From contig CAJXDE010000007.1 in the NCBI GenBank assembly GCA_913052635.1, positions 1 through 39,842 of the forward strand: a stretch of DNA of 39,842 nucleotides. The letters are read 5' to 3'. Below are positions 1,022-7,172 of the stretch, one piece after another (position 1 is the first letter of the stretch; the number at the start of each line of letters is the position of its first letter). This DNA is from an uncultured Halieaceae bacterium (GTDB lineage: Bacteria; Pseudomonadota; Gammaproteobacteria; Pseudomonadales; Halieaceae). A program made the position numbers and the translations under genes. Under the pieces are notes generated by a model, which had not been told where the DNA came from, searched no databases, and was given only the letters and a program-made list of their open reading frames with translations.

Positions 1022-1975
1022 ATGTCAACTTTCATTGATATTTATAACATGGCTAAGCCACTGACGCCTGCTTTGGACGCGGAACAATTTGCCTTTTCAC
1101 TCAATGGGGGCGTGACGCTCCGGGGCTATCGAGGAGAGGTCACTAAGGGAGCACCATTGGTGCTGCTGCATAGCATCAACGCAGCGCCCAGTGCGATGGA
1201 AATGCGTCCCCTGTTTGAGCATTACCGAGACAAGCGTCCGGTGTGGGTCCCGGACCTACCCGGTTTTGGACTCTCGGACCGACCCGATGTGACCTACAGT
1301 TCGGGTCTCTATGCGCGGTGGTTAGCGGAGTGGCTCGAGAGCCTTGAGCAACCTGCCGATGTGGTGGCGCTGTCCCTCACTGGCGAGTTCATGGCGCGGG
1401 CGATTCTGGAGCAAGGTACCAAGGTGCGCAGCCTGTCGCTCATCTCACCCACTGGTATGGGGGTGCGTGTGCCACCCACGGCGCCGAACGGTTCGCGCGT
1501 GGATCGTTTCCTTTCTTCGCCTTTGGTCGGTCGACCGCTATTTCGTCTGCTAACCAGTAAGCCGAGTATTCGTTGGTTCCTCGGCCAGGCATTTGTCGGC
1601 ACAACGCCTGAGCATATGGTGCGTTATGCGCTGGAGACGACGAGTCAGCCCGGTGCGCACTACGCGCCGATCAAGTTTTTGACATTCAGTTTGTTCACCG
1701 AGCAGGCAGTGTCACGTCTTTATAGCCGGCTCAAATTGCCGTGTTTGGTGCTTTACGATCGGGACCCTAACATCGGGTTTGAACGTTTATCGGAGCTCAC
1801 TGAAGTGCACAGCCATTGGGCAGCCAAGCAACTCTCGCCCAGCCTCGGTCTGCCCCATTGGGAGCTCACTGCTGAGACCATTGAGGCGCTTGAGGATTTC
1901 TGGAAGCCGCCAGAGCAGGGCGCGATGTGCTCAGGCGATATCTCGGACCACGGCGTTTGCCGCGAGTCGGCCTGA
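1022..1975 (+). CDS. Alpha/beta-fold hydrolase in photosynthesis gene cluster
   Basis: This is a 317-residue alpha/beta hydrolase of unknown substrate. The nucleophile elbow reads VVALSLTGEF with the likely nucleophile Ser118. The canonical GxSxG glycines are replaced (L before the Ser, T after it), but the rest of the triad is present: LYDRDPN for the acid (D246 or D248) and LPHWE for His279. It sits between divergent bchI and convergent crtD. BchO, the hydrolase of the bchIDO operon, is a possible relative, but BchO normally follows bchD, so I do not use that name. ATG 1022 lies only a few bases after a TATACT -10-like hexamer (1010-1015). Translation might therefore really start at ATG 1049, or the mRNA may be nearly leaderless. 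The last 45 bases overlap the end of crtD on the other strand. Confidence 0.8.
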   Translation: MSTFIDIYNMAKPLTPALDAEQFAFSLNGGVTLRGYRGEVTKGAPLVLLHSINAAPSAMEMRPLFEHYRDKRPVWVPDLPGFGLSDRPDVTYSSGLYARWLAEWLESLEQPADVVALSLTGEFMARAILEQGTKVRSLSLISPTGMGVRVPPTAPNGSRVDRFLSSPLVGRPLFRLLTSKPSIRWFLGQAFVGTTPEHMVRYALETTSQPGAHYAPIKFLTFSLFTEQAVSRLYSRLKLPCLVLYDRDPNIGFERLSELTEVHSHWAAKQLSPSLGLPHWELTAETIEALEDFWKPPEQGAMCSGDISDHGVCRESA

Positions 1976-3418
1976 CAGCGTCGCCATCGGCACACCGGGC
2001 CCAGGGTGGACGCTTCCTCCCGACAAATACAAACCTCTGAGACGACTGCGAGCACCCGGTCGGGTGAAGCTCGACCAAATGCCATGCGAGGCGCCACCGT
2101 AAAGGGATCCGCCACTGCCCGGAAATCGCCCGTGCCAATCGTTAGGGGTGGTGCTAACACAGTCGCTGTCCCGAAAGCTGAGGTTCAGGCCGCATCGCTC
2201 CAGCACCGCAAGCGCATTGTCCCGTGTGCTTGCCACGTCATCATCGGACCAGCTCTGCCGATCCCCATCGGCGGGGGCGTTGACCAGCATGAGTAGCCGC
2301 TCTGATCCATTCAGCGACCCATTCGGGCCCCGGTCTTGGGCGCAGAGATACACCGTCGGCTTCGCAGGCACATTGCGCTCCTCAAAGATGGCGTTGAATT
2401 CGCTCGGGTAGTCTGACTCGAAGAAGACGTTGTGATGATCGAGATCAAAGCCAGAACTGCTGCCTTTAATGCACCAAGTCAGCGCAGAGAGCCCGCGCTG
2501 CTCTACTGATCGTGGTTTGACAGCCCGCATCGCCTCGCACCCTAGCTGCCCGGTGGCAAGCGCATTGGTGTCGCCATTGAAGACGACGACATCAGCGGGC
2601 AGTGAGGTGCCGTCTTCAAGGCGCACGCCGCAGGCCTTGTCGCCTTTTACCAACACCTCGCTAACGTGGGTGTTGAAATGCAGATCGATGCCTAGCTCGC
2701 GGCCGAGATCGGCCATGGCGGCGGCGAGTCGATGCATGCCTCCATCCACCAGCCAAACGCCTTCGAGCTCCACGTGGGCGATCAGCATCAGCGTGGCGGG
2801 CGTGCTGAGTGGCGAGGAGCCCACATAAGTGGCATAGCGGGCAAACAGTTGCCGCAGTCGCTCATCAGAAAAAAAGTCACCCAAGGCGCGCCATAAATTG
2901 GGCGCGGGTTTGGCCGCTATCAGCGAGCTGGGGTGATGTCGACGCAGGACGCGACCAACCAGCGTCACCGGGTCGGGCTTCGATGCGGTCATGAAAGTTT
3001 CAGAGAGCGTCTGATGAATACGCGCACTCTGCGAGTAAAAGCGCTCAAAGCCAATGGCGTCGTCTGTGCCGGCGAAATCCTCGATGGACTGGCGGGAGCG
3101 CTGCGCGTCGGGGTACAAGTCCAGCACCCCACCGTGACTCCAAGCGTGGCGGGCGATGATTGGGCTTTCCAGCAGTGTCAGCCGATCATTCAGGCAGGCG
3201 CCTGCATCGGCGAACAGTTGCTCGAAGATCGAGCGCATGGTCAGGACGGTAGGGCCGCCGTCGACCTCACGGTCATCGACAGCGCGCGTATGCATCTTGC
3301 CGCCGGGGGCATTCCCGCGCTCAAAGAGTGTGACCTGGAAGCCCGCGCGCGCCAGATCGATGCTGGCTGCCAACCCACCGGCACCGGCGCCGATCACAAT
3401 GGCGTGCTTGGCGCTCAA
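1931..3418 (-). CDS. crtD: Carotenoid desaturase, CrtD-type (1-hydroxycarotenoid 3,4-desaturase)
   Basis: This is a 495-residue FAD-dependent carotenoid desaturase of the CrtI/CrtD family. The N-terminal dinucleotide-binding motif VIGAGAGGLAAS (about residues 8-19) is followed by the family's FERGNAPGGKMHTR and VDGGPTVLTM stretches. The C-terminal LSGGSVHPGPGVPMA is the typical FAD-binding end of this superfamily. Length and the location beside bchI favour CrtD, which introduces the 3,4 double bond in the spirilloxanthin/spheroidene pathway, over phytoene desaturase CrtI. Substrate cannot be proven from sequence. The ATG at 3418 overlaps the stop of the upstream membrane-protein gene by 4 bases (ATGA), so the two are translationally coupled. 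Its 3' end overlaps the convergent hydrolase by 45 bases. Confidence 0.87.
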   Translation of the reverse strand: MSAKHAIVIGAGAGGLAASIDLARAGFQVTLFERGNAPGGKMHTRAVDDREVDGGPTVLTMRSIFEQLFADAGACLNDRLTLLESPIIARHAWSHGGVLDLYPDAQRSRQSIEDFAGTDDAIGFERFYSQSARIHQTLSETFMTASKPDPVTLVGRVLRRHHPSSLIAAKPAPNLWRALGDFFSDERLRQLFARYATYVGSSPLSTPATLMLIAHVELEGVWLVDGGMHRLAAAMADLGRELGIDLHFNTHVSEVLVKGDKACGVRLEDGTSLPADVVVFNGDTNALATGQLGCEAMRAVKPRSVEQRGLSALTWCIKGSSSGFDLDHHNVFFESDYPSEFNAIFEERNVPAKPTVYLCAQDRGPNGSLNGSERLLMLVNAPADGDRQSWSDDDVASTRDNALAVLERCGLNLSFRDSDCVSTTPNDWHGRFPGSGGSLYGGASHGIWSSFTRPGARSRLRGLYLSGGSVHPGPGVPMATLSGRLAANAVVRDIA

Positions 3419-6771: not shown

Positions 6772-7172
6772 GTTTCTGAGCCAATACTGCCCCTATGTAG
6801 CATTATGTTTACTGTATTTATGTCTAATAATCTATACATAAGTTTGCACAGGCCTCAGGCAGTCACCTAATGCATGGCAACACGCCCGCTATCCGGGTTC
6901 GAGGCGGTGCTTTTCTATCGCTTGGGTTGCACCCGGGTAGGCGGGTCGAAAGGCAAAAGTCGCGGGCCACAGTCCAGCTATCTCATCCGTTTTCACCCCC
7001 ACACTGATAGGCAACTGAGACACTCGCGCCTCAAGCACGTAACAAAGCCAAGGTGTGGGGTTCAGTTTTTGTCTTGATGCATCCGACACTGACTCAGGCA
7101 GAGTCCTGTCATCCTGTGTCGGGGTGCGGTATCTTGCCGGCCCATTTAATGTTGAAGAAATGAGACCACACT
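6772..7172. other. Divergent intergenic region between ATP-grasp gene and fadH
   Basis: This is a 401 bp gap between two divergent genes. The first ~80 bases (to about 6850) are AT-rich and hold the likely ATP-grasp promoter with the TGT-N12-ACA site. The remaining ~320 bases are of ordinary composition. Short open frames in it have no recognisable product, no good ribosome-binding site and no conserved-looking features. No tRNA, hairpin terminator or riboswitch was recognised. The fadH promoter should be in the last 100 bases but no convincing -35/-10 pair stands out. Confidence 0.6.
6821..6838. promoter_or_regulatory. Putative PpsR/CrtJ-type operator (TGT-N12-ACA)
   Basis: The sequence TGTCTAATAATCTATACA matches the TGT-N12-ACA consensus bound by the photosynthesis repressor PpsR/CrtJ in purple bacteria. 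It lies about 50 bp upstream of the GTG start of the ATP-grasp gene, inside the most AT-rich stretch of the region, where that gene's promoter should be. Six fixed bases occur often by chance in 40 kb, so position is the main support. No ppsR gene is visible in the window. Confidence 0.45.

Follow-up and report, generated by a model that had tools for sequence, protein, structure and literature searches.

A membrane-protein/cytochrome P450 gene pair, often joined by an ATP-grasp ligase gene, accompanies crtD in photosynthesis gene clusters and is a candidate carotenoid-tailoring cassette

What is the role of the non-core genes that stand beside bchI and crtD in an uncultured Halieaceae bacterium? 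The stretch analyzed here, hereafter the window, comprises 39,842 nucleotides of contig CAJXDE010000007.1 (assembly GCA_913052635.1). It holds only the end of a photosynthesis gene cluster, pufL and pufM being located on other contigs of the same 2.39-Mb genome. A sequence-only reading of this DNA had placed there, next to bchI and crtD, a hydrolase, a DUF2306-like seven-helix protein, a complete cytochrome P450, and an ATP-grasp ligase, and had proposed that together they form a small tailoring pathway. Profile searches and motifs located all six genes at the positions given by that reading. The named non-core genes are, nevertheless, not one set: the core consists of the gene encoding the seven-transmembrane (7-TM) protein and the P450 gene. 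We propose, with moderate confidence, that this pair, together with the ATP-grasp gene where it is present, constitutes a carotenoid-tailoring cassette that moves horizontally among phototrophs. The relevant features of the window are as follows.

1931..3418, minus strand: crtD (1-hydroxycarotenoid 3,4-desaturase), NF045637, 631 bits for a cut-off of 580, TTG start
3415..4161, minus strand: 7-TM DUF2306-like membrane protein of 248 amino acids, seven long helices predicted, module core
4162..4205, no strand: divergent intergenic region of 44 bp between the 7-TM gene and the P450 gene
4206..5585, plus strand: cytochrome P450, PF00067, 3.6e-76, 257 bits, module core
5554..6771, minus strand: ATP-grasp ligase, PF02655 2e-7 (over cut-off), PRK06849 7e-67 (best NCBIfam match, under cut-off), optional third member
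6821..6838, no strand: TGT-N12-ACA palindrome (CrtJ/PpsR-type) upstream of the ATP-grasp gene

The crtD product scored above the NF045637 equivalog cut-off for proteobacterial CrtD. Its TTG start (3418-3416) and the TGA stop of the 7-TM gene (3417-3415) overlap by 4 bp on the minus strand, and the predicted coupling of the two genes was thus confirmed at the codon level.

The evidence for a conserved unit came from the loci of the best 80 of 242 relatives found with the 7-TM alignment, one genome being scanned for each species. The P450 gene was the divergent neighbor of the 7-TM gene in 77 of them, and in the remaining three the contig ended within 120 bp of the 7-TM gene. The orientation was divergent in all 77 loci where the P450 was visible, with a gap of 40-70 bp in 59 of the 77 (range -12 to 231), and no cassette-type locus with a 7-TM gene but no P450 was found among the 80 where both could be seen. 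The ATP-grasp gene was present in 56 of the 69 testable loci (11 of the 80 were truncated at this point) and was absent within the available DNA in 13, namely 12 Luminiphilus-type loci and L174. It is, thus, an optional third member, missing from a Luminiphilus subclade. The crtD gene was directly downstream of the 7-TM gene in 62 of the 80 loci, and crt, bch, or puf genes were found in 75; the five others were four Halieaceae contigs (g32 type) and a short Oceanicaulis contig. Thirty-four loci, labeled in their records as Alpha-, Beta-, or Gammaproteobacteria apart from acidobacterial labels treated below, came from outside the Halieaceae (29 of them distinct at <90% 7-TM identity); the P450 was present in all 34 and the ATP-grasp gene in 32 of 33 testable. 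This gene arrangement exceeds chance by far.

The apparent occurrence in Acidobacteria (L184 and L199) was set aside, since the 80-95% identity of the proteins with their counterparts in the Hyphomonadaceae metagenome-assembled genome (MAG) L195 points to probable errors of binning or labeling. L189, labeled Klebsiella pneumoniae, was likewise taken as a mislabeled MAG. These three records, probably misbinned or misnamed, carry photosynthesis clusters of proteobacterial type.

The link to phototrophy was analyzed at three levels. Among 57 genomes of the genus, the P450 was found in 49, pufLM in 44, and the ATP-grasp gene in 29; in those at least 90% complete, the counts were 17/17, 17/17, and 8/17, respectively. 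Stretches were taken from 10 genomes of the genus, of which eight cover the block (G077, G030, G011, G022, G016, G060, G017, and G010) and two do not (G063 and G002). All eight showed the hydrolase, crtD, the 7-TM gene, and the P450 in succession beside bchI, crtD and the hydrolase being separated by about 3 kb in G010, and six also carried the ATP-grasp gene. No ATP-grasp gene was found in G030 and G017, either at the block or genome-wide at E 1e-10. The cluster of G011 reads pufCML, bchZYX, bchC, crtF, crtE, crtC, crtB, crtI, bchO, bchD, bchI (names assigned by eye from translations), a gene set consistent with an acyclic carotenoid pathway of the spirilloxanthin type.

At the family level, 101 Halieaceae genomes at least 85% complete (the window's own, at 84%, being counted in the 101) were searched with the 7-TM, pufLM, and P450 profile queries. 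Seventy-eight combined a completeness of 90% or more with a contamination of 5% or less; of these, 25 had pufLM and 53 did not. A strong 7-TM match (≥155 bits) and the P450 (E 1e-60 or better) occurred in the same 23 genomes, all within the 25, whereas neither was found in any of the 53 (hypergeometric probability 9e-18, relatives not being independent). Four pufLM-positive genomes had no 7-TM gene: G147 and G148, both of genus g46, and two of lower completeness, G002 and G003, with G003 having the P450 and the ATP-grasp gene at a contig edge. Four genomes below 90% completeness (G014, G062, G081, and G110) had a 7-TM gene but no pufLM match; bch genes were seen on the G014 contig (L155) and at the G081 locus. 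G110 and G062 (86-87% complete) carried the 7-TM, P450, and ATP-grasp genes, hereafter the trio, without a pufLM match; no bch gene was found on the 20 kb of G110 (L209), while G062 was not searched for bch genes. The congeners of G110 (G107-G109) have pufLM. In genus g27, the pair was found in two pufLM-positive genomes and was missing from two pufLM-negative ones (91 and 89% complete).

Finally, an even sample of 397 Pseudomonadota included 39 pufLM-positive genomes. The trio was found in four genomes (the window's, G377, G499, and G526), all pufLM-positive, the chance of this for the three others being about 8e-4; 35 of the 39 were without it by 7-TM and ATP-grasp searches. The sequence-only reading had reasoned that these genes should not be found together in non-phototrophs away from bch or crt genes, and neither the 53 pufLM-negative Halieaceae nor the four trio genomes of the phylum sample contradicted this, G110, G062, and L192 (a short contig with the trio alone) being possible exceptions. 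The trio thus marks a minority of phototrophs, and no clear case outside phototrophs was seen in the samples searched.

The relationship with crtD was analyzed by a maximum-likelihood tree of 48 CrtD proteins (reduced from 76 at 85% identity) and four CrtI outgroup sequences. All 37 CrtD rows adjacent to a 7-TM gene formed one clade (support 98/90), which mixes Alpha-, Beta-, and Gammaproteobacteria, and the 11 others, mostly crtC-linked, fell apart from it. The tree did not include the crtD of the window itself, whose placement in the cassette clade goes via included relatives that are more than 90% identical. In genome G499 (L244), there are two crtD genes, of which one adjoins crtC and the other the 7-TM gene; this suggests that the two desaturases have different substrates. 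In G083, G084, and G085, crtD, the 7-TM gene, the P450, and the ATP-grasp gene lie together, at a distance of more than 100 kb from pufLM or on a different contig, with two extra open reading frames (ORFs) between the P450 and the ATP-grasp gene in G083. The crtD of G147 is 68% identical to that of G083 and has the same suf neighborhood, but the trio is missing between crtD and the following methyltransferase gene; G148 has the suf and crtD part as in G147, with a different other flank. Genome-wide, G147 and G148 contained no strong 7-TM match, no P450 (E 1e-60), and no ATP-grasp gene (E 1e-10). Since crtD persists in these two genomes without the trio, it seems not to need it, which fits a tailoring role rather than that of a CrtD subunit. 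Conversely, the trio was found in clusters where only a crtC-linked crtD was seen (L167, L172, L181, L186, L190, L191, L193, and L242). The best reading of these data is that the trio moves horizontally and is lost as a unit, usually with its own crtD clade.

The P450 of the window contains the AGHET, ExxR, and FGxGPHTCVG motifs and therefore the FxxGxxxCxG, ExxR, and I-helix (A/G)GxxT signatures of the cytochrome P450 superfamily, in agreement with its description as complete. In 40 sequences 53-91% identical to it, G399, G401, the heme ligand C405, G407, E325, R328, and A269-G270-H271-E272-T273 were invariant. Its kinship was compared with solved structures in the PDB. The best relative by profile was LUT5/CYP97A3 (PDB 6j94; 1.5e-71, 244.7 bits; next protein, 202.8 bits), followed by an unnamed P450 (7.6e-59) and CYP3A4, the carotene epsilon-monooxygenase (PDB 6l8h) reaching 181.9 bits. 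Control P450s behaved differently: a second P450 of the window's genome matched CYP107-type enzymes best, without LUT5 among the best 60 of its 92 matches, and one from G047 prefers CYP120. The kinship to carotenoid hydroxylases is suggestive only, and we did not retain it as proof of a carotenoid substrate, since another control, described below, scored LUT5 equally. A "cytochrome P450", which may or may not be of the cassette family, also appears in the figure key for a Citromicrobium cluster region (PMC3338782).

The ATP-grasp protein belongs to a ligase fold with the catalytic metal and ATP residues in place, as judged from PF02655, the structural model, and the ECNPR motif. Residues K115, K152, E261, N263, and R265, as well as the ECNPR motif, were invariant in 36 sequences. 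The model (predicted local distance difference test, pLDDT, 90.7) matched biotin carboxylase, PylC, and PurK, and profile matches to solved structures were weak (2pn1, 4e-9; an MvdD-like protein, PDB 9bou, 2.4e-4). The protein thus resembles the carboxylate-amine ligases (PylC fold; MvdD-like 9bou) in its predicted fold and its invariant Lys/Glu/Asn/Arg core. No carotenoid-directed enzyme of the ATP-grasp class came up in a literature search. In six genomes (G304, G203, G198, G159, G465, and G274), of which five have no pufLM, a further group of this ATP-grasp family was observed (181-220 bits); it might reveal the general chemistry of the ligase.

The AlphaFold2 model of the 7-TM protein (pLDDT 90.8) contains seven long helices, so that this part of the earlier description stood. 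The likeness to DUF2306 (PF10067), in contrast, remained below threshold (18.8 bits for a gathering score of 31.6, over residues 14-70), and the protein can be called DUF2306-like but not a member, even though the weak match was found in all nine members of the first 7-TM alignment. Seven helices and the fixed P450 partnership also characterize the cassette protein relative to this family. A PDB fold search with the model gave no match at E < 0.001. Fifty-eight columns were invariant in 43 sequences, including H15, H39, H72, and H185, and these invariant polar residues suggest that the protein may be an enzyme or a cofactor-binding partner.

Weaker 7-TM matches were also considered. Those of G082, G139, and G143 in the family set (30-66 bits) were discounted as DUF2306-like paralogues. 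The phylum sample gave 25 matches, of which 21, all weaker, lay outside the trio genomes. The loci of seven of these 21 were inspected: G441 (beside pufC) and G234, both pufLM-positive, at 34-36% identity, and G156, G164, G440, G467, and G490 at 24-30%. No P450 or ATP-grasp gene was found on the stretches read. All 21 were treated as DUF2306-like paralogues, 14 of them on score alone (≤53 bits). The homologue of G441 (L245, position 10279, plus strand; 36% identity, divergent) follows pufC in a phototroph, again with no P450 or ATP-grasp gene on the stretch, and possibly represents a second subfamily tied to the reaction-centre operon.

Regulation was examined through the TGT-N12-ACA palindrome, which we take to be the CrtJ/PpsR site. 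The whole window contained seven copies for 6.8 expected, that is, no enrichment, and because this count was at chance, only a position-specific test was used, covering 150 bp upstream of each gene in distinct regions and compared with 30 shuffles that approximately keep dinucleotides. Upstream of the ATP-grasp gene, 16 of the 44 regions contained the palindrome (shuffles: mean 1.5, most 4); for the hydrolase, whose upstream region is common with bchI in Halieaceae, the count was 18 of 32 (mean 1.2, most 3). With redundant loci included, 19 of 49 ATP-grasp loci had the motif. It was found in 11 of the 31 ATP-grasp loci without a bch or crt query match within 900 bp upstream; two of these 11 are L150 and L152, in whose 20.7-kb loci no photosynthesis gene was seen. 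With crtB as the upstream neighbor of the ATP-grasp gene, the motif was present in 7 of 10 cases and may there serve crtB.

Four neighboring genes of the window lie outside the core module.

2..919, minus strand: bchI (Mg-chelatase ATPase subunit), TIGR02030 3.4e-136, 453.8 bits for a cut-off of 466.95, truncated by the window edge
1022..1975, plus strand: alpha/beta-hydrolase-fold gene, PF12697 3.4e-14, neighbor of bchI
7173..9260: old yellow enzyme (OYE)-type reductase, beyond the ATP-grasp gene
9399..10775: rubredoxin/NADH-rubredoxin reductase fusion, beyond the OYE gene

The bchI score falls under the TIGR02030 cut-off because of the truncation. The hydrolase had been described as triad-bearing with an atypical nucleophile elbow. 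The serine elbow ALSLT (Ser118) and a putative catalytic histidine (His279 in LPHWE, its role being assigned from motif position) are indeed present in the window. Ser118 was found in 17 of 18 aligned sequences, the remaining one being unreadable, and Asp246 in 17 of 18, but the histidine only in 14, with glutamine in the other four; the family thus departs from the conserved catalytic histidine of Ser-Asp-His alpha/beta-hydrolases. The hydrolase occurred in 42 of the 80 loci, 39 of them Halieaceae-type, and is divergent from bchI in Halieaceae. It was not found in 31 of the 34 trio loci outside this family, and it adjoins bchI in the photosynthesis cluster L267, on a stretch without the trio. 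Together with the variable histidine, these data led us to abandon its assignment to the same pathway: the hydrolase is a separate, bchI-linked gene. This family, with its non-standard elbow and His/Gln-variable site, is common in Halieaceae clusters and is encoded apart from bchO. The OYE-family reductase and the rubredoxin-reductase fusion (7173-10775) trail the cassette in the window's subclade and were not found beside it in the other loci; it is possible that they provide the P450 electron supply.

What stood of the proposed tailoring pathway is therefore an oxidation and ligation unit of three non-core genes tied to phototrophy and mostly to crtD, with the hydrolase removed and with a carotenoid product suggested by the linkage and by the kinship of the P450. 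In the mechanism that we envisage, the CYP97-like P450, with its 7-TM partner, would hydroxylate or further oxidize a carotenoid of the acyclic spirilloxanthin series, as produced by CrtC, CrtD, and CrtF. The ATP-grasp enzyme would then activate a carboxylate for coupling to an amine or a hydroxyl, so that a polar carotenoid conjugate would result; in ligase-free lineages, the oxidized carotenoid would be the end product. The order of the two steps is proposed because there are lineages with the P450 and the 7-TM protein that lack the ligase, such as the single-contig genome G030. Two known systems offer comparisons. Among the CYP97 enzymes (LUT5/CYP97A3, epsilon-monooxygenase), LUT5 is the closest solved relative by profile; they share the full P450 motifs and the photosynthetic carotenoid setting, but they act on cyclic carotenoid end groups, in chloroplasts, whereas the cassette clusters carry an acyclic, spirilloxanthin-type gene set. 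The spheroidene monooxygenase CrtA of Rhodobacter and Roseobacter likewise performs an oxygen-dependent tailoring of an acyclic carotenoid and is encoded in the photosynthesis cluster; it has neither a ligase nor a 7-TM partner, is not a P450 of the cassette family, and gives a color-shifting keto group. Halieaceae are without crtA according to PMC12654162.

Several observations weigh against a carotenoid-tailoring cassette. Eighteen of the 80 loci had no adjacent crtD, four g32 genomes have the trio without crtD alongside, and the 162 relatives beyond the best 80 were not seen. The palindrome showed no clear enrichment upstream of the P450 (4 of 47 regions; shuffles: mean 1.4, most 8) or of the 7-TM gene (4 of 51; mean 1.0, most 3). 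A mirror-tree comparison of distance matrices was also unfavorable, with within-trio correlations of 0.43-0.56 against up to 0.74 with crtI or bchI, and thus did not favor a special co-evolution. The control P450 L270 (G042, from another family of the order) equals the cassette P450 on LUT5 in a single-sequence search (168.8 and 166.1 bits, respectively), although its top structure is 7wzl and not LUT5. Finally, Luminiphilus syltensis, Congregibacter litoralis, Haliea (Pseudohaliea) rubra, and Chromatocurvus are described in PMC3679898 as having the same pigments, bacteriochlorophyll a (BChl a) and spirilloxanthin, by ultraviolet/visible spectra, and for C. litoralis also by high-performance liquid chromatography, as cited in PMC2654016. 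If these strains carry the cassette, its product would, with such ordinary pigments, be minor, spectrally silent (the chromophore being kept), or not a carotenoid.

This last case leads to the alternative that survives best, namely that the trio produces a small metabolite under light or redox control, such as an amidated terpenoid signal or an oxidized apocarotenoid, instead of a membrane pigment. A P450 and an ATP-grasp enzyme form a natural-product-like pair, the pigment spectra of the Halieaceae strains are ordinary (PMC3679898), and strain KT71 produces unidentified polar yellow-orange compounds under repressed photosynthesis (PMC2654016). We consider this explanation rather unlikely, however, because the KT71 compounds arise under repression of the photosynthetic pigments, whereas the product of a photosynthesis regulon would be expected to behave in the reverse manner, and because no recurring scaffold-making enzyme was recognized by eye in the ORF starts of seven loci, where no family search was made, the recurring partner being crtD.

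It is unlikely that the trio acts on bacteriochlorophyll, another tetrapyrrole, or a quinone instead of a carotenoid. Its presence in photosynthesis clusters, the position of bchI next to the ATP-grasp gene in L166 and L179, and the good prediction of the trio by pufLM in Halieaceae would agree with such a substrate. On the other hand, the direct neighbor in 62 of 80 loci is crtD, and the block of G083-G085 travels with crtD, away from bch genes. Moreover, other phototrophs make BChl a without such a trio, as 35 of the 39 pufLM-positive genomes of the phylum sample illustrate. A degradative role, in which the 7-TM/P450 pair would trim excess carotenoid for photoprotective turnover or oxygen sensing and the ATP-grasp enzyme would recycle the product, is compatible with the oxygen-dependent enzyme class, the motif at the ATP-grasp gene, and the retention of crtD where the trio is absent, but we regard it as quite improbable. 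That the genes are unrelated passengers at the cluster edge is scarcely credible: the hydrolase and the downstream OYE and rubredoxin-reductase genes do look like local neighbors, and for the hydrolase this explanation may stand, but for the trio it is already contradicted by the divergent pair, which all 77 testable loci retain across several proteobacterial classes, and by the absence of the trio as a unit in G147 and G148.

We thus return to the carotenoid-tailoring cassette. Each of its parts belongs to or resembles a known superfamily; what is new is the combination, its spread, and the link to crtD. The trio was undescribed in a full-text literature search, which reached mostly texts outside subscription journals and these in part (including PMC2654016, PMC3679898, PMC3176799, PMC10576062, PMC12654162, PMC3338782, PMC11888242, and PMC10100682). 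We tentatively raise the possibility, which we hold with low confidence, that its product represents an undescribed class, an acyclic spirilloxanthin-type pigment oxidized by a P450/7-TM complex and joined by the ATP-grasp enzyme to an amino-acid-like or acyl partner, which would have spread horizontally among aerobic anoxygenic phototrophs and been missed since chromophore and color are unchanged.

The content of photosynthesis clusters is often regarded as fixed and limited to bch, crt, puf, and puh genes. A trio that is both conserved and transferable, and that includes an oxygen-dependent enzyme as well as a ligase, implies that there is a pathway step to which pigment surveys based on absorbance are blind. 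The natural relatives without the trio, of the G147/G148 type, make the pathway idea directly testable. The trio offers a new partnership between a P450 and a membrane protein, and possibly a carotenoid-conjugating ATP-grasp ligase; it would bear on the protection of aerobic phototrophs against light and oxygen, and would provide a marker gene pair for this group.

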